Shown here: in pieces, positions 36,129-61,649 of the stretch | Position numbering within the stretch: the stretch's first letter is position 1 | Layout of the letters: every line of letters begins with the position of its first letter | Source of the DNA: Sphingomonas sp. 28-66-16 | GTDB taxonomy: Bacteria > Pseudomonadota > Alphaproteobacteria > Sphingomonadales > Sphingomonadaceae | Reading direction: 5' to 3' | Assembly (NCBI GenBank): GCA_002281485.1 | Contig: NCGF01000015.1 | Coordinates: forward strand, 18,446 to 82,445 | DNA: 64,000 bases | Notes under the pieces: model-generated | What the model saw: the letters and a program-made list of their open reading frames with translations, nothing else | Database searches by the model: none | Told to the model about the DNA's origin: nothing | Made by a program: the position numbers and the translations under genes

Positions 36129-36139
36129 TGTCGCGGTGG

Positions 36140-43170: not shown

Positions 43171-44871
43171 ATGGCTGGAACATCCTTGGCTGCGACTCGT
43201 CGGGCAATGCTCAAAGGCGCAACTTTCGCCGTCAACGGGCTGGCCTGTTCCATGTTCGCCGGAACCGGAACGGCAATCGCCGCTGGGGGCGCGCACGCGA
43301 GCAGAGACCGGGAGTCCCTGGTCGCCGGCACCGGCATCGCCGCAGTCCAGACCCAGTACGGCAAGATCGCCGGCTATCGTGCCCATGACATCTTCGCGTT
43401 CAAGGGAGTGCCTTATGGTGACACTACCGGGGGTGCCAATCGCTTCCTGCCGCCGCGCCCGCCAAAGCCATGGACCGGGGTGCGCAGCGCCCGAAGCTAC
43501 GGACTGGTCGCGCCACAGGACAAGGGCACCGGGCGCCTTCACGACGACGAAGCCTTTCTGTTCCAGTGGAACGACAGCGTCGAGGGCGAGGATTGTCTGC
43601 GCGTCAATATCTGGACCCCCGGCATTGCCGACAATGCCAGGCGTCCCGTCATGGTGTGGCTCCACGGCGGCGGTTTCGCTGCGGGCTCGGGAAATGATTT
43701 GCCGGCCTTTGACGGCCATAATCTGGCCCGGCGCGGTGACGTGGTGGTGGTCACGCTCAACCATCGACTCAATCTGCTCGGCTTTCTGGACTTGGCCGCC
43801 CATGGGTCGGCCTATGCACGATCGGGCAATGTCGGGATGCTCGACATCGTCGCTGCGCTGGCATGGGTGCGCGACAACATCGCCAATTTCGGCGGCGACC
43901 CTGATCGTGTGACGATTTTCGGTCAATCGGGCGGCGGGGCCAAGGTCAGCACGTTGATGGGCATGCCGGCTGCCAAGGGCCTTTTCCACCGCGCGATCGT
44001 GCAAAGCGGGTCGGTAGTGCTTCGTAACACGCCGGAAAGATCGCGCCGTCTCACCGAGCTCACGCTGCGCGAACTGGGGATCGGCGGCAATCCGATCGAG
44101 CGGCTCCAGGCGATGCCCTATGCCGACCTCGTCCGCGCCAGCGACGCAGTGATGCAGCGCGAAAACAAGCCGATGGGCCCCGTCTTCGACATGCGCCGGA
44201 TGGTCGGCAATCTCGGCTTCGGGCCGGTGCTCGATGGCGACGTCCTGCCGACCGCGCCGTTCGGACCGGACGCGCCGGAAATGACGGCGGACGTACCGAT
44301 GATCATCGGCACGACGCTCAACGAATTCGCGACGGCGATAAACCATCCCGAATATGAAGCGATGACGATGGATGACCTGCGCGGGCGCTTGGCCGCGATG
44401 TTCCCGGATCGCGCCGACGCCGTGCTCGCCGCATTTCGCCAGCGCACGCCGCAGGCCAGCCCGTTCGACCTGTGGTCGCGCATCGCAAGCGCACCGATGC
44501 GTCGCGGTGCAATCGATCAGGCCGCGTCCAAGGCTGTGCAGCGTCGCGCACCGGCTTATCTTTACTGGTTCCAATGGCAGACCAACGTGCTCGACGGTCG
44601 CCCCCGCGCTTTCCACTGTGCAGAGATTCCATTCGTCTTCGCCAATGCCGAACGATGCGACCACATGACCGGCGGCGGCCCGCGCGCAGCGGCGTTGGAA
44701 GCGAGCATCGCCGACGCCTGGATCGCGTTCGCCCGAACCGGCAATCCGAATCATGCCGGCCTGCCCGTCTGGCGCCCCTATGAGGCGACGACGCAGGCGA
44801 CGATGCTGTTCGACGACCGCTGTCGGCTCGTCCTGGGCATTGATCGCGAGGAACAGGCGAGCGTCACCTGA
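43171..44871 (+). CDS. Type B carboxylesterase, Tat-exported
   Basis: The protein has 566 residues from ATG 43171 (AAGGAAGAGGGAA upstream). The N-terminus carries a twin-arginine signal (TRRAMLKGATF, then a hydrophobic run to about residue 38), so folded export to the periplasm is likely. It is an alpha/beta hydrolase of the type B carboxylesterase family: FKGVPYGD, EDCLRVNIWTP, WLHGGGFAAGSG (oxyanion hole), nucleophile S253 in FGQSGGGAKVS, and late histidine region FHCAEIPFVF. It hydrolyses carboxylic esters; the exact substrate is unknown. A LacI-type operator lies upstream, and an SGNH esterase gene follows after 53 bases. Confidence 0.93.
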   Translation: MAGTSLAATRRAMLKGATFAVNGLACSMFAGTGTAIAAGGAHASRDRESLVAGTGIAAVQTQYGKIAGYRAHDIFAFKGVPYGDTTGGANRFLPPRPPKPWTGVRSARSYGLVAPQDKGTGRLHDDEAFLFQWNDSVEGEDCLRVNIWTPGIADNARRPVMVWLHGGGFAAGSGNDLPAFDGHNLARRGDVVVVTLNHRLNLLGFLDLAAHGSAYARSGNVGMLDIVAALAWVRDNIANFGGDPDRVTIFGQSGGGAKVSTLMGMPAAKGLFHRAIVQSGSVVLRNTPERSRRLTELTLRELGIGGNPIERLQAMPYADLVRASDAVMQRENKPMGPVFDMRRMVGNLGFGPVLDGDVLPTAPFGPDAPEMTADVPMIIGTTLNEFATAINHPEYEAMTMDDLRGRLAAMFPDRADAVLAAFRQRTPQASPFDLWSRIASAPMRRGAIDQAASKAVQRRAPAYLYWFQWQTNVLDGRPRAFHCAEIPFVFANAERCDHMTGGGPRAAALEASIADAWIAFARTGNPNHAGLPVWRPYEATTQATMLFDDRCRLVLGIDREEQASVT

Positions 44872-44924
44872 CGCGGATCGTGATGCGGCATTTCGGCAAC
44901 AGCTTGTGATCGGTGGGTGAGACG

Positions 44925-46226
44925 ATGAACGGATATGCGATGAGCACCAAGGGCCCCGCGCTGCTTCTGGCGATCGCGACATTGTGCGCCGCGACGGTGG
45001 GCGAAGCGAAAGACCGCTGGGTCGGCACATGGGGCACCGCGCAGCAGCTCGCCCCAATGCCGACACCCCGGATGCCGCCCCGCCCGACCGGCGCTCCGGC
45101 GCCGTCACCGCCACCGCAAGCGCCGTCGCCAATTGCGCCGACCCCGCCCGAGTTGGCCGACCAGACCGTGCGGATGGTCGTCCGCCCCACGCTCGGGGGC
45201 AAATTGCTACGCGTGCAATTCTCCAACGCATCAGGTGGCGCGCCCGTGACGATCGGGCGGGCGCAGCTGGCGAAGAGCGCCGGTGCGGGGCGTATCGCAC
45301 CGGAGAGCGACCGCCCGATCCGCTTCGGCGGGCAAACCGCCGTCACCATCCAGCCTGGCCAGCTGGCGATCAGCGATCCGGTGGCGCTCGATGTCGCCGC
45401 ACTCGAACCGCTGGCGGTCTCGATCTATCTGCCCGGGAAAACGGCAGTAAACACACTGCATCCGCTGGGTTTGAACACCACCTATGTCGCCAAGGGCGAC
45501 CGCACGATCGCCGCAAGCCTGCCCGGTACGGAGACTAACCGTTCCTATTTCTGGCTGACCGGGATCGCCGTGGAAGCGCCCGAAAGCGCCGGCGCGATCG
45601 TCGCGTTCGGGGATTCGATTACCGACGGCTATGGCACCACGCCCGATACCGCGCGCGCCTGGCCCGATTTGCTGGCTGAGCGGCTGCAAAGCGCCGCAGC
45701 GACCCGCGAGGTCGCGGTGCTCAACATGGGGGTCTCGGGCAATCGCGTCCGCCGCGACGGGGCTGGTCTGTCGGCGCTTGCGCGGTTCGATCGCGACGTG
45801 CTGGCGCGTCCCGGGGTGCGCTGGGCAATACTGCTCGAGGGCATCAACGACATCAACATCGCCGCGATTCCGGGCATGCCGGCAACCGAAGCGGTCAACG
45901 CCGAGCAATTGATTACGGCCTATCGGCAATTCATCGAGCGTGCGCATCTGCACGGCATCAAGGTCGCGGGTGGGACGATCACCCCGGACGCGGGGCTATG
46001 GCTCTACAGCGCCGAGACCGAGGCTTTGCGACAGACGCTCAACGACTGGATCCGCCAGAGCGGCGCGTTCGACGCCGTGATCGACTTTGACGCTGCGGTG
46101 CGCGACCCGGCACAGCCGAGCCGGCTAAAGCCCGCATTTGACGATGGCGACCACATCCATCCCAACGACGCCGGCAATGCTGCCATGGCGGCGGCGATCG
46201 ATATCGGCATCTTCACCGCACCCTAG
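44925..46226 (+). CDS. Secreted SGNH/GDSL hydrolase
   Basis: The protein has 433 residues from ATG 44925; ATG 44940 is an alternative. A Sec signal (ALLLAIATLCAATVGEA) is followed by a Pro-rich linker (about 45-75), a beta-sandwich-like N-terminal domain and a C-terminal SGNH domain. Block I is AFGDSITDGYG with the catalytic serine, block II has the Gly of MGVSGNRV, block III has the Asn of LEGINDI, and block V is DGDHIHPND. Members with this layout are often carbohydrate acetylesterases or lipases. It probably acts with the type B esterase in the periplasm or outside, within the same operator-controlled unit. Confidence 0.9.
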   Translation: MNGYAMSTKGPALLLAIATLCAATVGEAKDRWVGTWGTAQQLAPMPTPRMPPRPTGAPAPSPPPQAPSPIAPTPPELADQTVRMVVRPTLGGKLLRVQFSNASGGAPVTIGRAQLAKSAGAGRIAPESDRPIRFGGQTAVTIQPGQLAISDPVALDVAALEPLAVSIYLPGKTAVNTLHPLGLNTTYVAKGDRTIAASLPGTETNRSYFWLTGIAVEAPESAGAIVAFGDSITDGYGTTPDTARAWPDLLAERLQSAAATREVAVLNMGVSGNRVRRDGAGLSALARFDRDVLARPGVRWAILLEGINDINIAAIPGMPATEAVNAEQLITAYRQFIERAHLHGIKVAGGTITPDAGLWLYSAETEALRQTLNDWIRQSGAFDAVIDFDAAVRDPAQPSRLKPAFDDGDHIHPNDAGNAAMAAAIDIGIFTAP

Positions 46227-46246
46227 CGCCACCCTCGCGCCGAGCC

Positions 46247-46279
46247 AGTTGCAAAGAAGTTGCAAGGAAGTTGCAGGCG
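46247..46279. repeat. Three 11-bp direct repeats upstream of the lacI-type gene
   Basis: AGTTGCAAAGA, AGTTGCAAGGA and AGTTGCAGGCG follow each other without gaps, an 11-bp period close to one helical turn. The core TTGCA resembles half of the GCAATCGATTGC operator extended by one base. They end 33 bases before the regulator's start and may be part of its own control. Confidence 0.6.
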
Positions 46280-46312
46280 ACTTATTGCCGGGCAGTCCAA
46301 GGGAGACGGGCT

Positions 46313-47317
46313 GTGGCCGGCAAAATCCGTACTATCTATGACCTTGCCGAGCTGGCCGGCGTATCGGCAGCGACGGTGTCGCGCGCGCTAGCCGGCAAAA
46401 GCGTCGTCAGTTCCAAGACGTCGGAGCGCATCCGCAAGCTCGCCGAGAAGCATGATTTCAAACCCAGTGCGCTGGCGCGCAATCTGCGCACCAAGCAACG
46501 CGGGGCGATTGGCGTGGTCGTGCCGCTGGGCCATGATCGCGGCCAGCATCTGTCCGACCCGTTCTTCATGACGCTGATCGGCAATCTGGCCGACGAACTC
46601 ACCGAACGCGGCTTCGATCTGATGCTGTCGCGCGTCATCCCGAGCCAGGACAATTGGCTGTCCAAGCTGATCGATGCCGATCGGGTCGATGGCTTCATTG
46701 TCATCGGTCAGTCCGATCAATCGGAGGTGCTCGACCGGATCGCGGGGGAATATCTGCCGCTGGTGGCCTGGGGTGGGTTCGTTCAGGGACAAATCCATTG
46801 TTCGGTTGGGACCGACAATTTCCTTGGCGGACGGCTGGCCACGCAGCATTTGATCGAGCGCGGGTGCCGCCGGATCGTTTTTCTCGGGAACACACAGGCG
46901 ATCGAACCGTCGCTGCGACTGGAAGGCGCCAAGGCCGCGATCCGCAGCCGCGACGATATCGTGCTGGTGGATACGCCGACACATTTCGACGCCCATGTCA
47001 GCGGGTCCGACATCGACGCCTTCCTCAGCCGGACCGATGTCCAGCCCGACGGGATCTTCGCGGCCTCCGACCTGATCGCCCTGACCGCGATTCAGGTGCT
47101 GGCGAACCGCGGCGTGTCGGTACCGGGCGACGTGAAAGTGGTTGGCTATGACGACCTCTACCTTGCCCGCACCAGTGCGCCGCCCCTGTCGACGGTGCGC
47201 CAGAACATTGCCGTGGGTGCCACCCATCTCGTCGACAGCCTGCTGAAGCGGATCGCGGGCGAAATGACCGGATCGGTGATCCTCAACCCCGAACTGATCA
47301 TCCGCAGCAGCACCTGA
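46313..47317 (+). CDS. LacI-family transcriptional regulator
   Basis: The protein has 334 residues from GTG 46313 (GGGAG upstream), giving an N-terminal helix-turn-helix typical of LacI: IRTIYDLAELAGVSAATVSRAL, then hinge helix KPSALARNLRTKQ. The periplasmic-binding-like core follows (GAIGVVVPL, then DNFLGGRLATQHLIERGCRRIVFLG, and PDGIFAASDLIALTAIQVL, VVGYDDLYLARTSAPPLSTV). It sits centrally in the catabolic cluster, where eight copies of a LacI-type palindrome occur, and is the obvious regulator. The inducer is probably a sugar released from the substrate; this is inferred. Confidence 0.94.
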   Translation: MAGKIRTIYDLAELAGVSAATVSRALAGKSVVSSKTSERIRKLAEKHDFKPSALARNLRTKQRGAIGVVVPLGHDRGQHLSDPFFMTLIGNLADELTERGFDLMLSRVIPSQDNWLSKLIDADRVDGFIVIGQSDQSEVLDRIAGEYLPLVAWGGFVQGQIHCSVGTDNFLGGRLATQHLIERGCRRIVFLGNTQAIEPSLRLEGAKAAIRSRDDIVLVDTPTHFDAHVSGSDIDAFLSRTDVQPDGIFAASDLIALTAIQVLANRGVSVPGDVKVVGYDDLYLARTSAPPLSTVRQNIAVGATHLVDSLLKRIAGEMTGSVILNPELIIRSST

Positions 47318-47348
47318 TATGGTCGCGCGGTCGCTGAAGGATTGACTT

Positions 47349-47360
47349 GCAATCGATTGC
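47349..47360. promoter_or_regulatory. LacI-type operator upstream of the DUF485-actP unit
   Basis: A perfect GCAATCGATTGC, preceded by TTGACT and followed by TAATAC, so it probably overlaps the promoter. It lies 32 bases after the regulator's stop and 60 bases before the DUF485 gene. Confidence 0.8.
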
Positions 47361-47419
47361 TAATACGGTGGCCCCTTGATCGCGGGATGACTATCGCGGC
47401 ACGATTCTGGGGAGGCAGC

Positions 47420-47743
47420 ATGAACGAGCACGACGCCGGCGACGCGCAGCTCCATCGGATCGCTGCGGACCCGCGGTACCGCGCGCTGGTGCGGTCGCGC
47501 GGTAGATTGGCGTGGGGCCTCAGCCTCGTCATGGTGGCGATCTTCTTTGGCTATATGCTGCTGGTTGCGTTCGCCGGTCCGCTGCTGGCCACGCCGATCG
47601 GGCGGATGACGACCACGATCGGTATCCCGATCGGCCTGTTCGTCATAGTGTCCGCGATCGGCTTGACCGCTGGCTATGTCATCGTCGCCAATCGGCGGTT
47701 CGATGTCCAAATCGCTGCCTTGCTGCGCGATCACGGCGCGTGA
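47420..47743 (+). CDS. DUF485 membrane protein (YjcH-like)
   Basis: The protein has 107 residues from ATG 47420 with GGGGAGG upstream. A hydrophilic N-terminus with [20 protein letters not shown], the DUF485 signature, precedes two transmembrane helices ([20 protein letters not shown] and [20 protein letters not shown]). In E. coli the homologous yjcH precedes actP; here too the stop overlaps the symporter start (GTGA). It is presumably a small partner of the symporter. Confidence 0.9.
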
Positions 47744-49440
47744 CGCGCGCCATCGCTCGCTTGATCGCCCTTCTGGCGCTCGGCGTTACGCCGGCCGCCG
47801 CCCTGGCAGCGGGCGGCGACGAGGCGGGCGCGAACCTGCCGGCTATCATCACCTTCGGCATTTTCATCGCGATAACGCTCGGTGTGACGTGGTGGGCCGC
47901 GCGCAGAACGCACACCACAGCGGATTTCTACGCGGCAGGCGGGGGCATCACCGGGCGCCAGAACGGCCTGGCGATTGCCGGAGACTACATGTCGGCGGCC
48001 TCGTTTCTCGGCATCTCCGCCTTGATCTTCGCCGACGGTTATGACGGCTTGATCTATTCAACCGGCTTCCTGGTCGGCTGGCCGATCATCCTGTTCCTGC
48101 TCGCCGAACGGCTGCGCAACCTCGGGCGCTACACCTTCGCCGATGCAGCCGCGTTCCGCTTTGGCCAGGCCCCGGTGCGGCTGTCCTCGACCTTTAGCTC
48201 GCTGACCGTCATCCTGTTTTACCTGATCGCGCAAATGGTGGGTGCAGGGCAGTTGATCCACCTGCTGTTCGGAATCCCTTATGCTTATGCCGTCGGCTCG
48301 GTCGGGTTGGCGATGACGATCTATGTGCTGTTCGGCGGGATGATCGCGACCACCTGGGTGCAGATCATCAAGGCCGTGCTTCTGCTCGGCTGCGCGACGT
48401 TTATGAGCAGCGCCGTCCTCTATCATGTCGGCTTTTCGTTCGATGCCTTGTTCCGCCAGGCCGTCTCCGCAAAAGGCGCCATCGCCCGGGCAGGGGGTGC
48501 GAGCGATACCGCGGCCGCGCGGTCCGCGCTGGCGATCCTGGCCCCGGGTGGCTTCATCAAGGGCCCGGCATCGGCGATTTCGCTTGGCATGGCGCTGATG
48601 TTCGGCACCGCCGGGCTGCCCCATGTGCTGATGCGCTTCTTCACCGTGCCGGACGCCAGGACCGCGCGCACGTCGGTGCTGTGGGCGACGGGGTGGATCG
48701 GCTATTTTTATCTGCTGACCTTCGTGATCGGTTTTGGCGCGATCATTCTGGTCGGCGAAAACCCGACCTTCTTCGATCCCGCCACGGGCGCGATGCGCGG
48801 CGGCACCAACATGGTGGCGATCCATCTGGCCGAGGCGGTGGGCGGCGACGTGTTCATGGGGTTCGTATCAGCCGTGGCCTTCGCGACGATCCTCGCCGTG
48901 GTGTCGGGGCTGACCCTGTCCGGAGCGTCGACGATCAGTCACGATCTTTACGCCTCGGTGCTGTGCAAGGGGAAGCCCGACCCCGCCGCCGAACTGAGGC
49001 TGTCGCGCCTCACCGTCCTCGTTCTGGCCGTGTTGGGGGTGGCGCTCGGCATCGCGTTCGAAAAGCAGAACGTGGCGTTCATGGTCAGCCTCGCTTTCGC
49101 GGTCGCGGCATCGAGCAATTTCCCGGCGTTGCTGCTGTCGATGCTGTGGCAGGACTGCACCACGCGCGGCGTCGCCTGGGGAAGCGCGATCGGCGCGCTG
49201 GCAGCGGTGGTGCTGACGGTCCTGTCACCGGCGATCTGGGTGGCGCAACTCGGTGCAGCGACCGCGATCTTCCCCCTCGCATCGCCCACACTAATCTCGA
49301 TGCCGCTCGGCTTTCTGGCGATCTGGCTGATCTCCCGCGCCGACCGCAGCGCCCGCGCCGCGCTCGATCGGGCCGGTTATCTGGCGCAGCGGGTCAGGTC
49401 CGAAACCGGGGTCGGCGCAGCCACTGCCCGCCATCATTGA
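47740..49440 (+). CDS. Sodium:solute symporter, ActP-like (acetate/short-chain carboxylate)
   Basis: The protein has 566 residues from GTG 47740, coupled to the DUF485 gene by a four-base overlap. An N-terminal signal-like segment ([19 protein letters not shown]), as in ActP, is followed by about 13 membrane helices with SSS-family landmarks: [33 protein letters not shown], the [18 protein letters not shown] block and [14 protein letters not shown]. These match ActP-type monocarboxylate permeases rather than sugar symporters. In this regulon it could collect acetate or other short acids set free by the esterases. Confidence 0.9.
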
Positions 49441-49462
49441 ACAACCAAAGCAGGAGAGCGCA

Positions 49463-50590
49463 ATGATACGCAAGCATGGGGTAAAAAAGATCGCGACGGG
49501 CGGCGCAACGCTGCTCGCGCTTCTGTTGATGACCGGCGGTGCCTTGGCGCAGGGCCAACCCAAGCCGGAGCCGCAACCCCGGGCATGGGCCCCGCCGACG
49601 GGGCCGCTTACGCCCGAAGAGCAAGCCAAGTTGCGCCCGGTCGCCCCCGAATTGCAATCGGCTGCACGCATGGCGCTGGGCTTTTCGAAGATGATGGGCA
49701 CGATCAACGAAGCGATGGTGCTCGCCTCGCGCAAGCGCGGCGGTGGCCCGCCGCCGGCCCCGCGTCTCCCCGACGTCCTGGTGACCGAGCAGATGATCCC
49801 GGGACCCAAGGGTGCGCCCGACGTCAAGCTGTTCGTCATCAACGCGAAGCCCGGCACCAGCCGCCCCGGCATCCTCCATACCCATGGCGGGGGCTTCATC
49901 CTTGGCAACGCCGAAACCGATATCCGCCGGCTGCAAGGGCTCGCCCGAGAGCTCGACTGCGTCATCGTCACGGTCGAATATCGACTAGCTCCCGAAACCG
50001 ACTATACCGGGTCGATCGAGGACAATTATGCCGGACTGCGCTGGATGTACGACAAGGCCGCGGACCTGGGCCTCGATCGCGGCCGGATCGCGTTGACCGG
50101 CGAAAGCGCCGGCGGGGGCCATGCCGCCTTGCTGGCGATCACCGCGCGCGACCGGGGCGAGATCCCGATTCTGTTCCAGGCCCTGGTCTATCCGATGCTC
50201 GACGACCGCACCGGCGGCGTCGTGAAACTGCCGGCCCATATCGCCACGGTCGGCTGGAGCGCACCCGAGAACCAATATGGCTGGCGCGCCTTCCTCCGGC
50301 AGCAGCCCGGCACCGCCCAGGTCCCCGTACGCGCTGTGCCAGCGCGCACCAAGAGTCTCGCTGGCCTACCCCCTGCTTTCATCGAAGTCGGCGGGCTCGA
50401 CTTGTTCGTGAATGAGGACATCGACTACGCACGCCGGCTTAATGCGGCGGGCGTGCCGACCGAGCTGCTCGTCATCCCCGGCGCATTTCATGGCTTCGAC
50501 GGCCTCGCGCCCGACAGCCCGCAGGCGCAGCAGTTCACCCGCGCCAAAGTGGAGGCGCTGCGCCGCGCCTTTGCCCGCGGCCGCAACTGA
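49463..50590 (+). CDS. Exported alpha/beta hydrolase, hormone-sensitive-lipase (family IV) type
   Basis: The protein has 375 residues with AGGAGAG before the ATG. A Sec signal (KKIATGGATLLALLLMTGGALAQ) leads to a Pro-rich stretch and a helical cap (about 50-95), then the catalytic domain: oxyanion motif HTHGGGFILGN (about 139-149), VTVEYRLAPE, nucleophile serine in GESAGGGHAAL, the aspartate of GGLDLFVNED and the histidine of PGAFHGFDG. Family IV esterases prefer short to medium acyl esters. It is the third gene of the DUF485-actP unit, 22 bases downstream of actP. Confidence 0.92.
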   Translation: MIRKHGVKKIATGGATLLALLLMTGGALAQGQPKPEPQPRAWAPPTGPLTPEEQAKLRPVAPELQSAARMALGFSKMMGTINEAMVLASRKRGGGPPPAPRLPDVLVTEQMIPGPKGAPDVKLFVINAKPGTSRPGILHTHGGGFILGNAETDIRRLQGLARELDCVIVTVEYRLAPETDYTGSIEDNYAGLRWMYDKAADLGLDRGRIALTGESAGGGHAALLAITARDRGEIPILFQALVYPMLDDRTGGVVKLPAHIATVGWSAPENQYGWRAFLRQQPGTAQVPVRAVPARTKSLAGLPPAFIEVGGLDLFVNEDIDYARRLNAAGVPTELLVIPGAFHGFDGLAPDSPQAQQFTRAKVEALRRAFARGRN

Positions 50591-50596
50591 TCGACG

Positions 50597-50629: not shown

Positions 50630-50681
50630 GCGCTGGAACCGGCATTCGATCAGGCAACGAGATGAGGCATTACCTGATTCC

Positions 50682-50693: not shown

Positions 50694-50771
50694 GACAAAG
50701 CTCCGCAGACAGATAGGGTAATCCGACAAACCATAAAGCAGACGCTCGACAAAACTTCTCAAATCCGTTAT

Positions 50772-50783
50772 GCAATCGATTGA
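50772..50783. promoter_or_regulatory. LacI-type operator, proximal, upstream of the first cluster TonB receptor
   Basis: GCAATCGATTGA, one mismatch from a perfect palindrome, 24 bases before the receptor start codon and directly upstream of its ribosome binding site region. Confidence 0.75.
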
Positions 50784-50807
50784 AAATATAAAGAGGGGGA
50801 GAGGAAA

Positions 50808-52943: not shown

Positions 52944-52955
52944 GCCTGTCCGATC

Positions 52956-52993: not shown

Positions 52994-53009
52994 TCGTCGG
53001 GCCCACATC

Positions 53010-53021
53010 GCAATCGATTGT
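53010..53021. promoter_or_regulatory. LacI-type operator upstream of the MFS transporter
   Basis: GCAATCGATTGT, 63 bases before the MFS start codon, one mismatch from a perfect palindrome. Confidence 0.78.
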
Positions 53022-53083
53022 TTTTCAGGCGCCGAGCGCCTAAGCATCGCCTGCCACAAGCCAATGAGATAGCGGGGAGCGTC

Positions 53084-54343
53084 ATGGAAAGCCAAGCCGG
53101 CGTAGGGAGTGGCTCGACGCTGCTGAAGGCGATCGTCTTCGCGATGTTCGCGATGTTCGCGATGACGACCGACTCGGTCGGCACCGTGATCCCGCAAGTC
53201 ATTCGCGAATTTCGGCTCGGGCTCACCGCCGGCGGATCGTTCCAATACGCCACGATGTCGGGCATCGGCATCTCGGCGATCGCACTCGGCTTTCTCGCCG
53301 ATCGGATCGGCCGCAAGGCGACGATCCTGATCGGCTTGCTGATGTTCGGCGGCAGCTCCGCGCTGTTCGCGGCGGGACATTCGTTTCCGCTGTTCGTGAC
53401 GCTGTTGTTCGTCGCCGGGCTCGGGATCGGCGTCTTCAAGGCCGGCGCGCTGGCGCTGATCGGCGACCTGTCGCGTTCGACCGACGAACATGCCCGCACA
53501 ATGAATTTGATCGAGGGCTTTTTCGGGATCGGCGCGATCATCGGCCCGGCGATCGTCGCGTACATGCTCAACACCGGGGCGAGTTGGAAATGGGTCTATC
53601 TGATCGCGGCGATGCTGTGCGCATCGCTCGTGCTAGGCGCGGCGCTGGCGCGCTTCCCGCAGCCGATCGTCACTCGGGCCGAGCCGGCCCGCGCCAGCGA
53701 AGCAATTCGGATGGCCGGCGATCCCGCTGCGCGTTTTTTCGGCACGGCGCTGATGCTCTATGTCGGCGCCGAAGCCGCGATCTATGTCTGGGCGCCAACC
53801 TATCTCGCCGGTTATAAGGGCGCGTGGACAGGGCTGGCGGCCTATGTCGTCTCGATCTTCTTCGTCCTTCGCGCGCTTGGCCGCTTCCTCGGCGTGTGGC
53901 TGTTGTCGCGGTTCGAATGGCCAACGGTACTGCTTTCCTGCAGCGCCGGGATGACATTGCTGCTTTGGATCGCGGTGCTGGGCGGACGGGAGGTCGCGAT
54001 CTTCGCGCTGCCGGCGACGGGGCTGTTCATGTCGGTACTCTACCCCACGATCAATTCGACCGGGATCAGCTGTTACGACAAGGGACGCCACGGCGCGATC
54101 GCAGGGTTGCTGCTGTTCTTCACCTGCGTCAGCGCGGTATTCGCGCCGATGGCGATGGGCGCTCTGGGGGACTCTCTAGGGGACAGCGCGTACAGCCTCG
54201 TGCTCGGTGCGATCTTCGCCACGCTGCTGGTCGGGCAATGCGCGTGGAACGTCTCGCGCAGGCCCTTCAAGGCGATGCTAGCGCAGCGCAACATGGCCGA
54301 TTATGGCGAGACGGGCGGCCTGGGCGGAGCGCCTGCAGCCTGA
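53084..54343 (+). CDS. MFS transporter
   Basis: The protein has 419 residues from ATG 53084 (GGGGAG upstream) and twelve predicted membrane helices. The family motif between helices 2 and 3 is GFLADRIGRKATIL; helix 4-5 features GIGVFKAGALALIGDLSR. A cytoplasmic loop near the middle (AEPARASEAIRMAGDPAARF) separates the halves. The substrate is not evident from sequence. Position in the LacI regulon suggests import of the sugar core (for example sucrose) across the inner membrane. It converges on the alpha/beta hydrolase gene, stops 10 bases apart. Confidence 0.88.
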   Translation: MESQAGVGSGSTLLKAIVFAMFAMFAMTTDSVGTVIPQVIREFRLGLTAGGSFQYATMSGIGISAIALGFLADRIGRKATILIGLLMFGGSSALFAAGHSFPLFVTLLFVAGLGIGVFKAGALALIGDLSRSTDEHARTMNLIEGFFGIGAIIGPAIVAYMLNTGASWKWVYLIAAMLCASLVLGAALARFPQPIVTRAEPARASEAIRMAGDPAARFFGTALMLYVGAEAAIYVWAPTYLAGYKGAWTGLAAYVVSIFFVLRALGRFLGVWLLSRFEWPTVLLSCSAGMTLLLWIAVLGGREVAIFALPATGLFMSVLYPTINSTGISCYDKGRHGAIAGLLLFFTCVSAVFAPMAMGALGDSLGDSAYSLVLGAIFATLLVGQCAWNVSRRPFKAMLAQRNMADYGETGGLGGAPAA

Positions 54344-54353
54344 CCCTCGCGGC

Positions 54354-55355
54354 TTATGGCGTTGCGGCGAGATGCCGGTCGAGCCACGCCGCGAACAGCG
54401 CCGACCATGCACCGCAAGGCTTGTCTTTAGGGCCCAAGCCGAAGCCATGCCCACCTTCTTCGAACAGATGCACCTCGACCGGTCGCGCGGCGGCTTGCAG
54501 CGCGCGGAGCATCATCATGCTGTTCTCGGGCGGCACCGCCTTGTCGTCGAGCGCATGGACGAGGAAGGTCGGCGGCGTCTGCCCCGTCACGTGCATGGCA
54601 GGCGATCGCCGCGCGATCAGGGCGGTCGAGGGGCTGGGGCCGAGCAGCCGCAGTGCCGATTCGGCATGGGTCACCGGCGCGGTCGCGCTGATCACAGGAT
54701 AGATCAGCCCCACTGCCGCGGGCCGCGCATCGAGCGCATCGGCCGCGTCGCGGGGGCGGTAGACCGGCTCGGCAAAGCCCGTCGCGAGCGTCGCGCCGAG
54801 ATGGCCGCCCGCCGAAAAGCCCACCGCTGCGACGGTTGCCGGATCATAGCCATAATGCTTGGCCCGCGCACGGATCAGTCGCATCGCCCGTTGCGCATCC
54901 TGCAACGGCACATCGGCACGATCGGCCCAGCCTTCGTCGGGCAGCCGATAGGTTAACACGAAGACGGTATAGCCAAGCGCCGTCATCGCCCGCGCGATGT
55001 CAACGCCTTCGTTGAGGATCGACACGAAGGTATACGCCCCACCCGGGAGCGACAGCAGGGCGCGGCCATTCGAGGTGGCGGGTCGAAACACCCGCAAAAC
55101 CGGCTCGGCGACATTGCGAACCAGAATGTCAGGCCAGCCGGGCGGCAGCGGTTTGGCGACAAAGCCCGTGGTCGGCGTGCCGTCGGGCCACAAGGCGATT
55201 TGTTCGGCATCGATCCATGCTTGGGGCATTGGCGGCAGCTTGGGAAATTGCTGTGCCCGGGCGGCAGCGCCAATGCCGGCCAGCCCGATCGCCCCGAGCA
55301 GGAAGGACCTGCGGCGGAGCCAAGCTCCAGCGTCTTCGCAATCCCGCTTCGTCAT
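54354..55355 (-). CDS. Tat-exported alpha/beta hydrolase, acetyl-xylan-esterase-like
   Basis: The protein has 333 residues from ATG 55355 (AGGAAACGGGA upstream). A twin-arginine signal (LRRRSFLLGAIGLAGIGAAARA) directs export. The catalytic domain resembles BD-FAE/acetyl-xylan esterases: LSLPGGAYTFVS (oxyanion region), VLTYRLPDEG, nucleophile in VGFSAGGHLGATLA, aspartate in VHALDDKAVPPENS and histidine in EEGGHGFGLG. It removes ester-linked acyl groups, likely from carbohydrate. It diverges from the GH68 gene across the shared operator at 55451. Confidence 0.9.
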   Translation of the reverse strand: MTKRDCEDAGAWLRRRSFLLGAIGLAGIGAAARAQQFPKLPPMPQAWIDAEQIALWPDGTPTTGFVAKPLPPGWPDILVRNVAEPVLRVFRPATSNGRALLSLPGGAYTFVSILNEGVDIARAMTALGYTVFVLTYRLPDEGWADRADVPLQDAQRAMRLIRARAKHYGYDPATVAAVGFSAGGHLGATLATGFAEPVYRPRDAADALDARPAAVGLIYPVISATAPVTHAESALRLLGPSPSTALIARRSPAMHVTGQTPPTFLVHALDDKAVPPENSMMMLRALQAAARPVEVHLFEEGGHGFGLGPKDKPCGAWSALFAAWLDRHLAATP

Positions 55356-55450
55356 TCCCGTTTCCTGCTCCTGATCGTTGCCGCTCGTCTGTTCCTCCGA
55401 ACGGGTCGCTAAATGTCGCACTTATTCGGGCGACCCCGAAACTATTCGCT

Positions 55451-55462
55451 GCAATCGATTGT
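55451..55462. promoter_or_regulatory. LacI-type operator between the Tat esterase and GH68 genes
   Basis: GCAATCGATTGT in the divergent control region. On the plus strand a possible promoter overlaps it: TTGTGA at 55459 and TATAAG at 55480, spacing 15. One operator may control both directions. Confidence 0.78.
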
Positions 55463-55510
55463 GAATATCGTTTCGACACTATAAGGATGGGCCCGCGAAA
55501 TCAACGGAGG

Positions 55511-55609
55511 ATGGCCTTGATCCGACAAGCCCGCGCGGGCGCCGCTTTGATGCTGGAGGCGCTGAACGCGATCACCCCCGCCGCGCCTCTTGGAGGCGCA
55601 GCGCGTTGA
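55511..55609 (+). CDS. Possible 32-codon leader peptide before the GH68 gene
   Basis: ATG 55511 opens a frame of 32 codons (MALIRQARAGAALMLEALNA...) whose TGA stop overlaps the TTG start of the GH68 gene (TTGA). GGAGG lies directly before the ATG, which is too close for an ideal ribosome binding site. It could couple translation to the GH68 gene or be chance; the peptide resembles nothing I know. Confidence 0.3.
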   Translation: MALIRQARAGAALMLEALNAITPAAPLGGAAR

Positions 55610-56775
55610 GCCCGTCACCTGCGTCGACCGCCCTTCTCACGACCGATGCCCCGAACCCCGCCATGTGGACCGAGGCGCAACTTCGCTTGCTCGACGGCGT
55701 CCGCCACGATGTCGCGCCGCTCATTTGCAGCGAACATGTCGTGCGCGTGAGCCCCGATCTCGACATTTGGGATGCCTGGCCAATCCAGGATGCCGACGGA
55801 ACGCCGGCAATGCTCGAGGGCGGCACCGTATTGTGGATGGCGCTCGGCGCGCCGCAATTTCTCGATCCGGACGAGCGCCACGGCCATGCGCGGATTCACT
55901 TGCTCGCTCGCTCGGCGGCGGGGTGGACTCATCTCGGTCCGGCGCTTGCCGACGGTTTTTCGCCAGGGAGCCGCGAATGGTCCGGGTCCGCGCTGCTCGC
56001 GCGCGATCGCTCCACGCTGGTGCTGTTCTTCACTGCCACCGGCCGCCGCGGCGAAACCACGCCGAGCTTCGAGCAACGCTTGTTCCGCGCCGAGGCGACG
56101 TTGGAGCGCGACGATACGGCTTACCGGCTGATCGACTGGCGGGGGCTGCGCGAGATCATCGTGCGCGAACCCGCTTTTTATATGGCGAGCGACGCCGGGT
56201 CAGGGGCGGTCGGCACGATCAAGGCCTATCGCGATCCGGCCTATTTTCGCGACCCCGTTCACGGCACGCACCACATTTTTTTCGCCGCATCGCTCGCTGG
56301 ATCGAGCTCGGCCTTCAATGGCGCGGTGGGGTCGGCCGTCGCCCTCGACGATAGCCTCGAACATTGGGCGATCCAGCCGCCCGTGATCGCGGCCGATACA
56401 CTCAACAACGAATTGGAGCGGCCGCACGCGATCTTCCATCAGGGCCATTATTATCTGTTCTGGTCGACGCAGCGCCACGTGTTCAACCCCCATGGCATGA
56501 TCGGCCCGACCGGTTTGTATGGCATGGTATCCGAGCGGCTGGGCGGCGGCTGGCGACCGCTGAACGGCACGGGACTCGTCTTTGCCAATCCGGCCGAAGC
56601 GCCCAAACAGGCCTATAGCTGGCTCGTCATGCCCGATCTCCAAGTCGCCAGTTTCGTCGATGCCTGGGGCAGCGATGGCGCCGATGCGAACGTCCGCCGC
56701 TTCGGCGCGACCTTCGCCCCGATGTTGCGGCTTCGCCTCGACGGCGACACGGCGGGCCTCGCCGAGCAACCATGA
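55606..56775 (+). CDS. GH68 family sucrose-cleaving enzyme (levansucrase/sucrase type)
   Basis: The protein has 389 residues, without signal peptide. GH68 landmarks in order: IWDAWP with nucleophile D56, EWSGSALL, the transition-state stabiliser D210 in YRDPAYF, acid/base E271 in ELERPHAIF, then YYLFWSTQ and YSWLVMPDL. The N-terminal PAMWTEAQ corresponds to the PSLWTRAD start of Zymomonas enzymes, which argues for the TTG at 55606 (GGAGG ten bases upstream) over the in-frame ATG at 55663. GH68 enzymes split sucrose into glucose and fructose or build fructans. The fructokinase gene follows with a four-base overlap, favouring intracellular hydrolysis. Confidence 0.9.
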   Translation: MSPSPASTALLTTDAPNPAMWTEAQLRLLDGVRHDVAPLICSEHVVRVSPDLDIWDAWPIQDADGTPAMLEGGTVLWMALGAPQFLDPDERHGHARIHLLARSAAGWTHLGPALADGFSPGSREWSGSALLARDRSTLVLFFTATGRRGETTPSFEQRLFRAEATLERDDTAYRLIDWRGLREIIVREPAFYMASDAGSGAVGTIKAYRDPAYFRDPVHGTHHIFFAASLAGSSSAFNGAVGSAVALDDSLEHWAIQPPVIAADTLNNELERPHAIFHQGHYYLFWSTQRHVFNPHGMIGPTGLYGMVSERLGGGWRPLNGTGLVFANPAEAPKQAYSWLVMPDLQVASFVDAWGSDGADANVRRFGATFAPMLRLRLDGDTAGLAEQP

Positions 56776-57677
56776 CCGCGACAGCGCGCTTCGCCGGGAT
56801 CGAGCTCGGCGGGACCAAGGCGATCGCGATCCTCGCCGACGGACACCGGATCGTCGATCGCCACATGGTCCCCACCACAACCCCCGATCCGACATTGGCG
56901 GCGCTGCGCGCCCGGCTCGCCGACTGGAACTCAACCATGCTATTGACCGGTCTCGGGATCGCCTCGTTCGGCCCGATCCAGCTTGACCCCGCGCATGCCG
57001 ACTTCGGCCAAATTCTCGCCACACCCAAATCCGGCTGGACCGGCGCGAGGGTGGCGGCGACGCTGGCCGACGGGTTGGACTGCCCATGGGCGATCGACAC
57101 CGATGTCAACGGCGCGGCACTGGCGGAACATCGCTGGGGTGCAGGGGTCGGCTGTGACAGCTTGTGCTACGTCACGATCGGCACCGGGCTCGGCGGCGGG
57201 ATATTGATTGGGGGACGCCCCGTTCACGGCGCGCTGCATCCCGAAATCGGCCACCTTCGGCTGCGCCGCGTCGCTGGTGACGCGTTTGATGGCACCTGTC
57301 CGTTTCACCGCGACTGCATCGAAGGGCTGGTAGCGGGCCCCGCGCTCCGCGCCCGTTTCGGCAGGGACCCGGCGTCTGTCGCCGATTCTCATCCGGCCTG
57401 GCAACATGTCGCCGCCGATATCGCCGAATTGTGCGCCGCGATCCTGCTGACGACATCGGCGCAGCGCCTTCTGTTCGGTGGCAGCGTCGCCTTGTCGCGT
57501 CCCTTCCTGCTCCCCTTGATCCGGGCGCGCGTGATCGACCGGATCGGCGGCTATCTGGACTTCGTCGATCGCGGCCGAATGGACGACCTCGTTCGGTTCG
57601 CCGGACTCGGCGATCAAGCCGGGCCACTCGGTGCGATCGCGCTGGCACAATCGGCGTCAGGCCAGGGTCTGTCCTGA
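56772..57677 (+). CDS. ROK-family fructokinase
   Basis: The protein has 301 residues and overlaps the GH68 gene by four bases (ATGA). Phosphate-binding motif FAGIELGGTKAIAI at the N-terminus, catalytic region IDTDVNGAALAEHRWGAG, and ROK segment YVTIGTGLGGGILIGG. The zinc-binding set is HPEIGHLRLRR...GTCPFHRDCIEG, typical of bacterial ROK fructokinases such as Zymomonas Frk. It phosphorylates the fructose released from sucrose, giving fructose 6-phosphate. The next gene converges with an 18-bp gap. Confidence 0.92.
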   Translation: MTATARFAGIELGGTKAIAILADGHRIVDRHMVPTTTPDPTLAALRARLADWNSTMLLTGLGIASFGPIQLDPAHADFGQILATPKSGWTGARVAATLADGLDCPWAIDTDVNGAALAEHRWGAGVGCDSLCYVTIGTGLGGGILIGGRPVHGALHPEIGHLRLRRVAGDAFDGTCPFHRDCIEGLVAGPALRARFGRDPASVADSHPAWQHVAADIAELCAAILLTTSAQRLLFGGSVALSRPFLLPLIRARVIDRIGGYLDFVDRGRMDDLVRFAGLGDQAGPLGAIALAQSASGQGLS

Positions 57678-57695
57678 CGCCGCCTTCAGCCTGGC

Positions 57696-59039
57696 CTATT
57701 TCGCGTCGACCTTGTCGATCAGATCGAGCAGCCCCTCGACGATCGCGGTTTCGGCACAGCCCGGCTTGAGCCGCGACGATACGACCTCGAAGGTGTTGAA
57801 CCCGAAAGCGGCGTCGTTGGGGATATAGCCCGACGGCGCCATCCCGTTGGTGAGCGTCGTCATCATCGTGTGCTTGAACGGCGATTCGCGTTTGAAGCGC
57901 TGCGCGATCATCGTGAACACTTCCCCATCGACCCCGCCGATCACGGTATCGCCAATCTTGAGCAAGCTCAGGCGCAGCGGGACTGGATCGGCATCTTCAT
58001 AGGTGCCGGCGTAACCGGCCCGGCCCTGATCGAGCCGCTTGCGCCCGGGACAGCTTACCGTCTCCTGCGCCCCGGCAATCCGTGCCACCGTCACCGGCCG
58101 CTCGAGGTTGGCGCGGGCAACGTGCAGCACCTCCTCGCCCAGCATCTGCCCCATCGACAGGATCATCTGCTTTTGCTGGTTCATCAGCTTCACGACCTGC
58201 GGGTTCTTGCGGTCCATGCCCGTCCCGCCGGGCGGCATCGCGTTGCTGATATCCTCGCCGCGCTTGGCATAATCGGCGATGCGGATCGCGCGCAAATCAT
58301 AGGTCTGCTGGAAGAAGATCGGGTTCTGGTCGCCGGCCGCACCGTTCGAATAGACCGCGACCGCATCATTGCCGAGCGAATCCTCGATATAGTTGGAGGT
58401 CGCGCCGGGCAGATCGGCGCTGACCAGGTCGAGGTTGCCGGTCAGAACGGCATGGACGCCGTAATTATAATAGACCGCGATCGGAGCGCCGGCGAGCGTA
58501 TCGAAGCGCACCACCGCGACCGTCTTGTCGGACGGCCCGTCATAATTGGGGCCCTCCCACCAGCGATGCGTCTGCGGATCGATGATGTTGCGATTGACGT
58601 TGATGTACGAGACGCCGGTACCATAAGCCATCCTTGCGGGCTGCAGCGCCGATGCGGCCTTGCGCACCGCGTCGAAGATCTGCCGTTCGTACGCCTCGCC
58701 GCGCAGCCAGGGCGCGCTATGCGTATGCGTCGCGGTCAGCAGGAACTGCTTCACCGGGATATGCAGCTCGCGTTCGGCTTGCGCGCTGACATGCTCCCAG
58801 GTTTCGGTCATGATCGCGCCGGCATCGACCGTGACCATCGCCGCCCGCGTGGCGCCGTCTTCGATTACGATAGCGCGCACGTTGAGCGGGTCGAGCACGC
58901 CCAGCATCGACTTCGGCAAATCCTTGACGGCGGGCGTGATATCGACCTTCGCCGCCCCGACCTTCAGCGATTGCGCCGCAGCCGGTGCGGCGGCGCATGC
59001 CAGGCTGATGCCCATAATGATATGAAGCTGAATTTTCAT
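57696..59039 (-). CDS. Secreted neutral-ceramidase-family hydrolase
   Basis: The protein has 447 residues with a Sec signal (about 1-22, ending AAPAAAQ). It matches the N-terminal domain of neutral/alkaline ceramidases: GAAKVDITPAV, NVRAIVIEDGATRAAMVTVDAG, the zinc-site region LLTATHTHSAPW, NYGVHAVLTGNLDLVSADLPG, and SNGAAGDQNP. The C-terminal immunoglobulin-like domain of true ceramidases is missing. The family cleaves amide or similar acyl bonds using zinc. In this regulon it may act on an acyl group of the substrate. Its promoter region shares the operators at 59174 and 59367 with the divergent TonB receptor gene. Confidence 0.85.
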   Translation of the reverse strand: MKIQLHIIMGISLACAAAPAAAQSLKVGAAKVDITPAVKDLPKSMLGVLDPLNVRAIVIEDGATRAAMVTVDAGAIMTETWEHVSAQAERELHIPVKQFLLTATHTHSAPWLRGEAYERQIFDAVRKAASALQPARMAYGTGVSYINVNRNIIDPQTHRWWEGPNYDGPSDKTVAVVRFDTLAGAPIAVYYNYGVHAVLTGNLDLVSADLPGATSNYIEDSLGNDAVAVYSNGAAGDQNPIFFQQTYDLRAIRIADYAKRGEDISNAMPPGGTGMDRKNPQVVKLMNQQKQMILSMGQMLGEEVLHVARANLERPVTVARIAGAQETVSCPGRKRLDQGRAGYAGTYEDADPVPLRLSLLKIGDTVIGGVDGEVFTMIAQRFKRESPFKHTMMTTLTNGMAPSGYIPNDAAFGFNTFEVVSSRLKPGCAETAIVEGLLDLIDKVDAK

Positions 59040-59173
59040 CGCCTTCTCCTAGCTGGTCGGGGCTCTCACGGTTCGAAAGAAGGCACCCACGGGTTCGCCC
59101 CTGGATCCGGCACGATCATTCGTCCTGAAACACCTCTAGTCTCTCTCGCGCCACCTGAAGCAGCGTCATTCTT

Positions 59174-59185
59174 GCAATCGATTGT
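59174..59185. promoter_or_regulatory. LacI-type operator upstream of the ceramidase-family gene
   Basis: GCAATCGATTGT, 134 bases before the start of the minus-strand ceramidase-family gene. Confidence 0.75.
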
Positions 59186-59366
59186 TAGTCGATGACCCGG
59201 GAAGTTGGCAAGCGTAATTGCAGGGCATCGCCAATCGCCGCGCCCGGCGTTGGCGATTCAAGGTTTATTTCGATTCCGCCCGAACGCGCGATCAAATTTC
59301 TCCGGCTTTCGAGGCCTGTTCCCGTGATCGACATCTTGTCGAGCGGATTACGCCATGATAGTCGGT

Positions 59367-59378
59367 GCAACCGATTGC
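59367..59378. promoter_or_regulatory. LacI-type operator upstream of the second TonB receptor
   Basis: GCAACCGATTGC, a palindrome with one changed pair, 33 bases before the receptor start. Confidence 0.65.
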
Positions 59379-59411
59379 AAAGAACAGTCGCTTTCAAGGA
59401 GGGGAAAAGCC

Positions 59412-61649
59412 ATGATCGAGCATCTTCATCCCGCGCGCCGCAGCATCGCCGGCGCCAGCCCAGCGCAGGGCGGGCACCGCACCGTGACGCGGCCGCTCAT
59501 TCGCTGCGGCGTCTCGCTCGGCGCCTGCGTCGCGGCCATGGCCGCCCCGCCGGCCTTGGCGCAAGTGGCGACACAGGCCAATGCCGATGCAGCGCAAGCA
59601 GCTAGCGAAGCGCCCGCATCGGGCGTCGAGGACATCGTCGTCACCGCCAGCAAGACCGGCGCCGAACGGCTCAATCGTGTCCCGCAGGCGATCCAGGCGT
59701 TTACCGGCGCGACCCTCAAGGAGCGCAACATCCGCGATGGCGCCGATCTGATACAGCTCATCCCGGGGGCGGCGCAGACGCAAGAGATCGGTGCCGGGTA
59801 TCGGATTTATTCGTTCCGCGGCTCGGGCGCCGGCGGGCCGATCGGCGACGGTCTGGTCGGTTATTATCTCGACGACACCCCCTTTGGCGTGCCCAACAAC
59901 CAAAGCGCCCCGCCGATCAACTATTTCGACCTCGACCGTGTCGAAGTGCTGCGCGGCCCTCAGGGAACGCTCTATGGCCAGGGATCGGCGGCCGGCACGA
60001 TCATCTACCACACCAAGAACCCCGATCTGGAAAAGGTCACCGAAGCGGGCGACGTGGAAATCTCGACCACGCGCGATGCCGGCAAGATCAATTACCGCGC
60101 GGCTGCGGCGCTCTCGATTCCGCTGGCGACCGACACGCTCGCGCTGCGCATCAGCGGCGGCTATGATTACCGGGCGGGCACCGCCGACATCTATGCCGGC
60201 GCACCCACCGGCACGCCGCGCGAGCGCAATGCCAACGACGTGGTGTCGAAGGACATTCAGGCCGTGCTGCTGTGGAAGCCCGACGCGCTCACCACGGTGC
60301 GGCTGCGCGCCTGGTATTTCAGCACCGACCAGAATTACCTGAACGTCATCAATTCGCTCAACCCGCCCTATGCGTCGTTCCAGGGCAACGTCGTTGGCTA
60401 TGATCGCCGCCGCGCCGAATATTTCTCGGGTACGATCACCCGCGAAATCGGGAAGTTCACGCTGACCAATGCCACGTCCTATCAGAAATCGCTCCCCGGC
60501 GGCTTTCAGGTCGGCCTGAACCTCGGCGCGCCGCTCGGGATCGGCATCCTCAACAATGGCGGCAATGCCCAGAATTTCGTCAACGAGCTTCGGCTCGCGA
60601 CCTCGGGGATCGGGCCGTTCCACGGCGTCGCCGGCGTGTTCTATCAAAACGCGAGGGGACTCTACACCTTCGACATCAACTTCCCCACGCTCGCGATCAG
60701 CGGCAATACGGTCACCAAGACCGAGAACGTCGCGCTCTTTGCGGAGGCGAGCTATGCGCTGTTCGGCGGCAAGCTCGTTCCGCTGGTCGGCCTGCGCTAT
60801 TTCAACGACACGCGGAAATCGGATTCGCTGTCGAACGGCACGCGGGTGCAGAGCAACGCCAATCCCGACGCGCTGACCTGGCGTGCCAATCTGGCTTACT
60901 ATCCGAGCAAGGACTGGCTGATCTTCTTCAACGCCGGCACCGGCTTCCGCAGCGGCATCCTCCAGTCCAAGGCGCAAGCCGATGCCGTGATTGCCGACGG
61001 TGTTCCCAGCGCCCTTTCGCTCACGCCCGACAAGCTGCGCAATCTCGAGCTCGGTGCGAAGGGAACGCTTTTCGATGGTGCGATCCGGCTCGCCGTCAGC
61101 GTTTATGACATCCAATACTCGAATATTCAGAGCGCCTTCAACACGTCGATCGGTCTTGCGGCGTTCGCCAATCTTGGCGATGGCCGGTCGCGCGGCGTCG
61201 ATATCGAGGCGACCTGGCGGACACCGGCCAAGGGCCTCGTGCTGTCGGTGGTCGGCAACGTGAACGATTCGAAGTTCACGCGTGTCCTGCCCGCCTTCGG
61301 CACCGCCAATCCACGCATCGGCAATGGTCAGCGCCTGCTCAACACGCCGCCCTTCAATTGGCGTGGCGATGCAAGCTACGATCATGATTTCGGCGGCATC
61401 GATGTGTTCGCTACCGGCTCGGTCACCGCGATCGGTCGCGCGCGCAACGGCGATGCCACGGTCGACACGCTCAACCCCTACCAGCTCTATAACATGAGCG
61501 CCGGAGTACGATTCGATCGGTACGAGGTCCGGCTGTTCGCCGACAATCTGTCCGACTATCGCGGCCCGACCTCGGCCAACGGCCCGACATTGCTCGCTGG
61601 TCCGCGCCCGCGCACGATCGGCATCACCTTCCGCCTCAACGCCAAGTAA
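59412..61649 (+). CDS. TonB-dependent receptor, LacI-regulon member 2
   Basis: The protein has 745 residues from ATG 59412 (AGGAGGGGAAAAGCC upstream). An extended N-region precedes the signal core (LIRCGVSLGACVAAMAAPPALAQ). TonB box-like DIVVTASKT, plug (VPQAIQAFTGATLKERNI ... FDLDRVEVLRGPQGTLYGQGS) and barrel ending RTIGITFRLNAK follow. It is paralogous to the receptor at 50808 over its whole length. Two receptors in one regulon suggest related but different ligands, for example differently acylated sugars. Confidence 0.93.
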   Translation: MIEHLHPARRSIAGASPAQGGHRTVTRPLIRCGVSLGACVAAMAAPPALAQVATQANADAAQAASEAPASGVEDIVVTASKTGAERLNRVPQAIQAFTGATLKERNIRDGADLIQLIPGAAQTQEIGAGYRIYSFRGSGAGGPIGDGLVGYYLDDTPFGVPNNQSAPPINYFDLDRVEVLRGPQGTLYGQGSAAGTIIYHTKNPDLEKVTEAGDVEISTTRDAGKINYRAAAALSIPLATDTLALRISGGYDYRAGTADIYAGAPTGTPRERNANDVVSKDIQAVLLWKPDALTTVRLRAWYFSTDQNYLNVINSLNPPYASFQGNVVGYDRRRAEYFSGTITREIGKFTLTNATSYQKSLPGGFQVGLNLGAPLGIGILNNGGNAQNFVNELRLATSGIGPFHGVAGVFYQNARGLYTFDINFPTLAISGNTVTKTENVALFAEASYALFGGKLVPLVGLRYFNDTRKSDSLSNGTRVQSNANPDALTWRANLAYYPSKDWLIFFNAGTGFRSGILQSKAQADAVIADGVPSALSLTPDKLRNLELGAKGTLFDGAIRLAVSVYDIQYSNIQSAFNTSIGLAAFANLGDGRSRGVDIEATWRTPAKGLVLSVVGNVNDSKFTRVLPAFGTANPRIGNGQRLLNTPPFNWRGDASYDHDFGGIDVFATGSVTAIGRARNGDATVDTLNPYQLYNMSAGVRFDRYEVRLFADNLSDYRGPTSANGPTLLAGPRPRTIGITFRLNAK

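Follow-up and report, generated by a model that had tools for sequence, protein, structure and literature searches.

We analysed a window of 64,000 nucleotides (64 kb) from Sphingomonas sp. 28-66-16 (contig NCGF01000015.1, positions 18,446 to 82,445), which reaches the contig end in a 3.14 Mb draft genome that is 86% complete. Its right-hand part carries a cluster of genes for sucrose metabolism and for exported acyl hydrolases, which the original prediction had read as a system for using acylated sucrose. Family scans of the window proteins (13 window genes) recovered every gene family named in that prediction, and the catalytic motifs agreed with them.

Genes of the cluster

The sucrose-cleaving enzyme (55606-56775, + strand) belongs to GH68 (PF02435, E 4.7e-60; solved relative 7bj4, E 3.1e-54). 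Its motifs WDAW, RDP and ELERP hold the D, RDP and E residues that have known catalytic roles in this family, so family score and residues agree. No obvious export signal was seen at its N-terminus by eye or with a script for hydropathy and twin-arginine (RR) motifs, the means by which all export calls were made. The next gene (56772-57677, +) encodes a fructokinase-like ROK-family kinase (PF00480, E 8.2e-47), whose best NCBIfam model is NF045550 ScrK at 167 of 400 bits. An MFS permease (53084-54343, +; PF07690) comes from a family that neighbours sucrose enzymes. The likely cluster regulator is a LacI-family repressor (46271-47317, +; PF00356 and PF13377). Two TonB-dependent receptors (PF00593 and PF07715 in both), about 40% identical to each other, lie at 50808-52943 (+) and 59355-61649 (+). 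Receptor 1 is the proposed outer-membrane gate for the ester, and the actual start of receptor 2 is probably downstream of the annotated position 59355.

Five predicted exported hydrolases accompany these genes. COest (43171-44871, +) is a type B carboxylesterase (PF00135, E 4.2e-96) with the motif GQSGG, and the SGNH/GDSL acyl hydrolase (44925-46226, +; PF13472, E 1.2e-29; solved relatives 9kr0 and 7tog) carries GDS, GIND and DHIH. Est4 (49463-50590, +) is a family IV esterase (Abhydrolase_3, PF07859, E 2.2e-51) with HGGG and GESAG. PaeX (54354-55421, -) is a BD-FAE/PaeX-like esterase (PF20434, E 2e-18; solved relative 6a6o) with GFSAGG, and its actual start codon probably lies inside the annotated open reading frame (ORF). 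It scored below the NCBIfam equivalog cut-offs for both PaeX (NF041902, 255 against 550 bits) and the acetylxylan esterase AxeA1 (135 against 700). The fifth is Cer (57696-59039, -), which has a neutral-ceramidase fold (Ceramidase_alk, PF04734, E 7e-14). The N-termini of COest and PaeX carry RR and those of the SGNH hydrolase, Est4 and Cer are hydrophobic and Sec-like, which fits the Tat and Sec routes already proposed for them. A DUF485 membrane protein (47420-47743, +; PF04341, E 1.7e-25) precedes an ActP-type short-chain carboxylate symporter (47740-49440, +). The symporter passed the subfamily model NF006903 (826.6 bits, cut-off 750) and missed the equivalog cut-offs of TIGR02711 (722.6 against 1099.25) and NF009135 (744 against 850).

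The AlphaFold model of Cer (predicted local distance difference test score 84.4, predicted template modelling score 0.87) gave four strong Foldseek matches, all neutral ceramidases (including 4wgk, 2zxc and 2zws; E 9.7e-24 to 8.4e-23, TM-score 0.67-0.69 by query), and the next TM-scores were at most 0.2. A profile search recovered the ceramidases as well, whereas a single-sequence PDB search returned one chance match only. Cer shares the fold and, in the profile alignment, the THTHS zinc motif with the human (4wgk) and Pseudomonas aeruginosa (2zws, 2zxc) enzymes. These are 630-688 amino acids long with a serine in GDVSP or GNLSP, whereas Cer has 447 amino acids and GDQNP. The serine of the ceramidase GDxSP motif is the nucleophile, and the Asn that replaces it is invariant in all 25 aligned sequences, the window's included. 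We therefore rejected the reading of Cer as a true ceramidase; it may belong to a different kind of zinc hydrolase.

Polysaccharide-cleaving glycosidases or lyases were absent from the 13 window genes in the family scans, which left most flanking ORFs unscanned. A xylan or pectin utilisation locus was rejected as a candidate because the window's genes include no such enzyme.

A LacI-type operator

We scanned the 64 kb window for mismatches to the LacI-type palindrome TGCAATCGATTGCA. Seven sites had at most two mismatches (0.35 expected), six of them at cluster promoters and one within Est4. Three further sites had exactly three mismatches (3.5 expected at up to three), one before the MFS gene and two outside the cluster. 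An operator scan combined with a genome-wide 12-mer count placed TGCAATCGATTGCT upstream of COest (43104-43117), and the same sequence recurs upstream of DUF485-actP (47348-47361). TGCAATCGATTGAA precedes receptor 1 (50771-50784), the operator-like CGCAATCGATTGTT with three mismatches precedes the MFS permease (53009-53022), and TGCAATCGATTGTG lies between the divergent PaeX and GH68 genes (55450-55463). Two palindromes stand between Cer and receptor 2: TGCAATCGATTGTT at 59173-59186 and the operator-like TGCAACCGATTGCA at 59366-59379, at the 5' end of the receptor 2 ORF and probably upstream of its actual start. The studied draft genome has five exact copies of the 12-mer TGCAATCGATTG, all of them in the cluster, and none of a reversed-pattern control. 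This distribution supports the view that the cluster genes form one regulon, as had been claimed, and we infer that the cluster's LacI protein binds the TGCAATCGATTGCA-like sites.

Esterase loci and plain-sucrose loci

A survey of 397 genomes of the family revealed GH68 relatives (E 1e-30) in 89 genomes and 91 places, the window included. We fetched stretches of about 20 kb around all 91 (seven were under 18 kb) and used tblastn to score the acyl hydrolases and transporters in them. Only hydrolases that resembled one of eight query proteins were scored, and members of other esterase families would have escaped notice in both kinds of locus; the window's own row scored three esterases, as its stretch began 9.4 kb before GH68 and left out COest and the SGNH hydrolase. 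At least three acyl-hydrolase genes were found in 15 of the 91 loci. All 15 had the window-type MFS permease or a relative of receptor 1 or 2, and none had the receptor or permease of the loci that we label plain-sucrose by resemblance. That receptor or permease was present in 70 of the 91 (G387 included), and 69 of these had no scored acyl hydrolase; the exception, L176, had a weak 30% match to Cer. L065 combined a 46% receptor 2 relative with a 32% esterase match, and five further loci had neither transporter kind. Fisher's test gave 8.9e-16 on 15 and 1 against 0 and 69, with G387 not yet counted and no correction for kinship.

Plain-sucrose loci resemble the window in having GH68 and the operator, and most of them also have LacI and the ROK kinase; they differ from it in their TonB receptor and permease and in the near absence of window-type acyl hydrolases. 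Relatives of the window's LacI repressor occur in both kinds. Two genomes, G336 and G380, hold both (plain-sucrose loci L035 and L038, esterase loci L145 and L146). When GH68 sequences were placed in a tree (110 rows), esterase loci fell in three places; this pattern needed six changes, at least three of them forced by well-supported branches. The tree was built by a quick method with support from the Shimodaira-Hasegawa-like approximate likelihood ratio test only; for named loci the labels were assigned manually, and L087, which had a single esterase match, was treated as an esterase locus.

The operator motif is common to both kinds of locus. We counted 150 sites in 69 plain-sucrose loci (at least two in 54 of them), where one Markov shuffle gave 10, and 45 sites in 14 esterase loci, where a shuffle gave 2. 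In two genomes the regulon is split: Cer and receptor 1 carry the same operator motif but are not adjacent to GH68, lying about 40 kb away in L155 (G069) and on another contig in L154 (G193). Receptor 1 relatives of 65-79% identity occur in L053, L057, L058, L061, L154 and L155.

The window-type MFS permease (E 1e-80) was detected in 14 of the 397 genomes, with GH68 nearby every time. Cer (E 1e-30) was detected in 12, of which 10 were also MFS-positive. An alignment of the MFS permease in named genomes gave 72 loci. GH68 was present in 31, a sucrose phosphorylase relative in 23 and an amylosucrase relative in 12, and 6 had none of the three. With a sucrose-cleaving enzyme adjoining it in 66 of the 72 loci, the window's permease is best read, from this neighbourhood, as a sucrose permease. 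The sucrose phosphorylase and amylosucrase labels were carried over from seven query proteins; L138, L108 and L096 were checked against solved structures and L147 separately.

From the 72 loci we hand-picked 30 as likely esterase loci. Because they were chosen, and some duplicate genomes with G handles (for example L137 and L063), their counts characterise this selection and should not be read as rates: MFS 30, LacI 28, GH68 27, ROK 26, Est4 23, Cer 19, tannase 18, PaeX 17, receptor 1 17, SGNH 14, Abh22 12, SGNH28 10, COest 2 and ActP 1. An operator (at most two mismatches) precedes Cer in 15 of 19, PaeX in 12 of 17, SGNH28 in 7 of 10, SGNH in 7 of 14, receptor 1 in 14 of 17 and GH68 in 21 of 27 of these loci. 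In most of them every ORF of at least 100 amino acids between the core genes could be assigned. The gene set stays together in shuffled order in several genera. L075 of Sphingomonas soli, for example, holds nearly the complete window set in a different order, including COest (a 74% relative) and DUF485-ActP, and in Sphingobium L100, L103 and L104 the genes for GH68, ROK, tannase, SGNH, a receptor, DUF3237 and MFS all run in the same direction.

The sucrose enzyme itself can change. L138 of Peristeroidobacter soli (Gammaproteobacteria) combines a sucrose phosphorylase (7znp, E 2.4e-156) and a PfkB kinase with relatives of Cer, PaeX, Abh22, SGNH28 and receptor 1. L108, from an Acidobacteria metagenome-assembled genome (MAG), has a sucrose phosphorylase with Abh22 and tannase relatives, while L096 (a Caulobacteraceae MAG) and L147 (G134) hold amylosucrase or sucrose-hydrolase relatives with several esterases. 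Since GH68 is swapped and the esterases are kept, the esterases follow sucrose enzymes and not GH68 itself.

Other genes recur near these loci. DUF3237 proteins occur in or beside L056, L060, L094, L096, L100, L103 and L104, and a DUF885 protein adjoins L063/L137, L066 and L073. In the window, a two-partner secretion pair (an ShlB-type transporter and a TPS-domain exoprotein) adjoins a CHAT-domain protein at 34236-41448 (-). On the other side of the cluster, a 365-amino-acid protein without a Pfam match (62251-63348, -) lies between two small proteins (61943-62254 and 63613-63927, also -) that are 64% identical to each other; our guess is that this trio is a toxin-immunity type of arrangement.

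A probable sucrose regulon extended to sucrose esters

Plants make sucrose esters as defence and specialised compounds. From the observed gene families, motifs, operator distribution, conservation and co-occurrence, we interpret the cluster as probably a sucrose-utilisation regulon that has been extended to acylated sucrose. This reading is supported by a set kept together in shuffled order, its separation from plain-sucrose loci, the shared operator and the replacement of the sucrose enzyme. The idea of sucrose metabolism and deacylation as one system thus gained comparative support.

The substrate, the order of steps, the inducer and every enzyme activity are predicted from sequence. One or both TonB receptors would carry the ester, or a partly deacylated form of it, across the outer membrane. 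In the periplasm, the exported hydrolases (SGNH, the family IV esterase, the PaeX-like enzyme, the ceramidase-fold putative zinc hydrolase and here also COest) would strip different acyl groups. The freed sucrose would be imported by the MFS permease and split by GH68, the fructose would be phosphorylated by the ROK kinase, and short acids would be recovered by ActP in this organism. The LacI repressor would control the set through its sucrose-type operator, with sucrose or a product as the presumable inducer.

Known sucrose systems have a similar core. The available part of the account of the Xanthomonas campestris sux locus (suxA, suxB, suxC and suxR) describes a TonB receptor, an amylosucrase, an inner-membrane sugar transporter and a regulator, with no acyl hydrolase among the four genes (PMC1790865). 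The Caulobacter crescentus suc locus comprises, in the accessible part of its description, the LacI-type repressor SucR and a four-gene sucrose operon, sucABCD, with a TonB receptor, induced by sucrose and repressed by SucR (PMC11897816). The window likewise brings together a TonB receptor, an inner-membrane permease, a sucrose-cleaving enzyme and a LacI-type regulator. It further resembles these systems in a permease family linked to sucrose enzymes and in an operator common with its relatives' plain-sucrose loci. It differs from both in using GH68 and other receptors, and from sux in adding exported hydrolases and ActP. In L110, a Caulobacter locus in our set, LacI, a receptor, GH13 and ROK accompany a permease that shares 51% identity with the window's, and we infer that this locus and suc correspond. 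Plant acylsugar acylhydrolases and acylsucrose fructofuranosidases remove acyl groups and cleave sucrose. The chemistry is the same as proposed here, but these are plant enzymes and not a bacterial uptake regulon.

The acyl groups are less easily assigned. A substrate cannot be read off from esterase families this broad. Trichome acylsugars had been given as an example of the esters, but the comparison does not favour them in particular: tannase/feruloyl-esterase (PF07519) relatives in 18 of the 30 chosen loci point at least as much to aromatic (phenylpropanoid) sucrose esters. Phenylpropanoid sucrose esters often bear both acetyl and hydroxycinnamoyl groups; these and aliphatic trichome acylsugars both fit. 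Sphingobium sp. SYK-6, described as a degrader of lignin aromatics, holds a version of the set without Cer. The studied genome encodes a LigA homologue, so the organism may use aromatic acids, and ActP suggests short acids.

Several observations weigh against the sucrose-ester reading. Besides the breadth of the esterase families, operators are few before some hydrolase genes of the chosen loci (6 of 23 for Est4, 4 of 18 for tannase and 2 of 12 for Abh22), perhaps because these genes sit inside operons. The split in transporters is not absolute: in L059 (G311, the window's own genus, counted among the 70) the window-type MFS and a close GH68 are accompanied by a plain-sucrose receptor and esterases are absent, and L147 combines esterases and receptor 2 with a plain-sucrose permease. 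The plain-sucrose loci, too, owe their name to resemblance and not to experiment. COest and ActP, which had been presented as parts of the system, are rare among related loci (2 and 1 of the 30), and we dropped them from the core. The two Cer relatives outside MFS-positive genomes (G171 and G287, 41-42%) have other surroundings. The distribution is patchy; among 11 genomes of the window's genus, MFS occurs in 2 and Cer only in the window's genome. PaeX and Est4 have relatives in 113 and 67 of the 397 genomes (E 1e-60), mostly without such a locus, and were dropped as marker genes for being too widespread.

Sucrose might merely signal the presence of a plant, with the co-induced esterases cutting other plant esters such as acetylated xylan or pectin, cutin or free phenolic esters. 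The same esterase families do include cell-wall and phenolic ester hydrolases, and with an operator equal to that of plain-sucrose loci, sucrose may induce whatever these esterases cut. We consider such a plant-exudate regulon unlikely, however, as none of the 13 window genes is polysaccharide-cleaving and most related loci have cores without an unassigned ORF of at least 100 amino acids. In addition, esterase loci mostly have their own receptors, apart from plain-sucrose loci, and a sucrose enzyme remains as partner even when its family changes.

It appears quite improbable that the substrate is larger than sucrose, such as a plant oligosaccharide multi-ester or another acylated oligosaccharide or glycoside that ends in sucrose or a fructofuranosyl unit. 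GH68 enzymes can act on other beta-fructofuranosides, and several receptor types are found across the loci. Sucrose phosphorylase and amylosucrase act on sucrose, however, and their relatives replace GH68 in other esterase loci; a second glycosidase was also absent from the window's genes in the family scans. Esterases are common in these genomes, so unrelated esterase genes could have come to adjoin a sucrose operon by chance. We rejected this explanation as very improbable in view of the set's conservation in shuffled order across genera, the shared operators, the contrast between 15 of the 91 loci and none of the plain-sucrose kind, and the satellite loci of Cer and receptor 1 under the same motif.

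We found no description of a bacterial pathway for sucrose ester use in the accessible text of the open-access literature. As a tentative extension of the sucrose-ester reading, which we hold with less confidence than that reading itself, the cluster could represent an undescribed and widely dispersed bacterial catabolism of plant sucrose esters. Modular deacylases under a sucrose repressor would be joined to three sucrose-cleaving chemistries of two unrelated folds (GH68, and the GH13 enzymes sucrose phosphorylase and amylosucrase) in Sphingomonadales, Caulobacteraceae, Gammaproteobacteria and Acidobacteria, and would include a new class of ceramidase-fold sugar-ester hydrolases that lack the expected serine. 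Cultured strains with versions of the set (Sphingomonas hylomeconis, S. soli and Sphingobium sp. SYK-6) make a direct test feasible. If the sucrose-ester reading is true, the gene set would be a marker for bacteria that consume sucrose esters, the deacylases may be acid- or position-specific, and the ceramidase-like family would gain a role.

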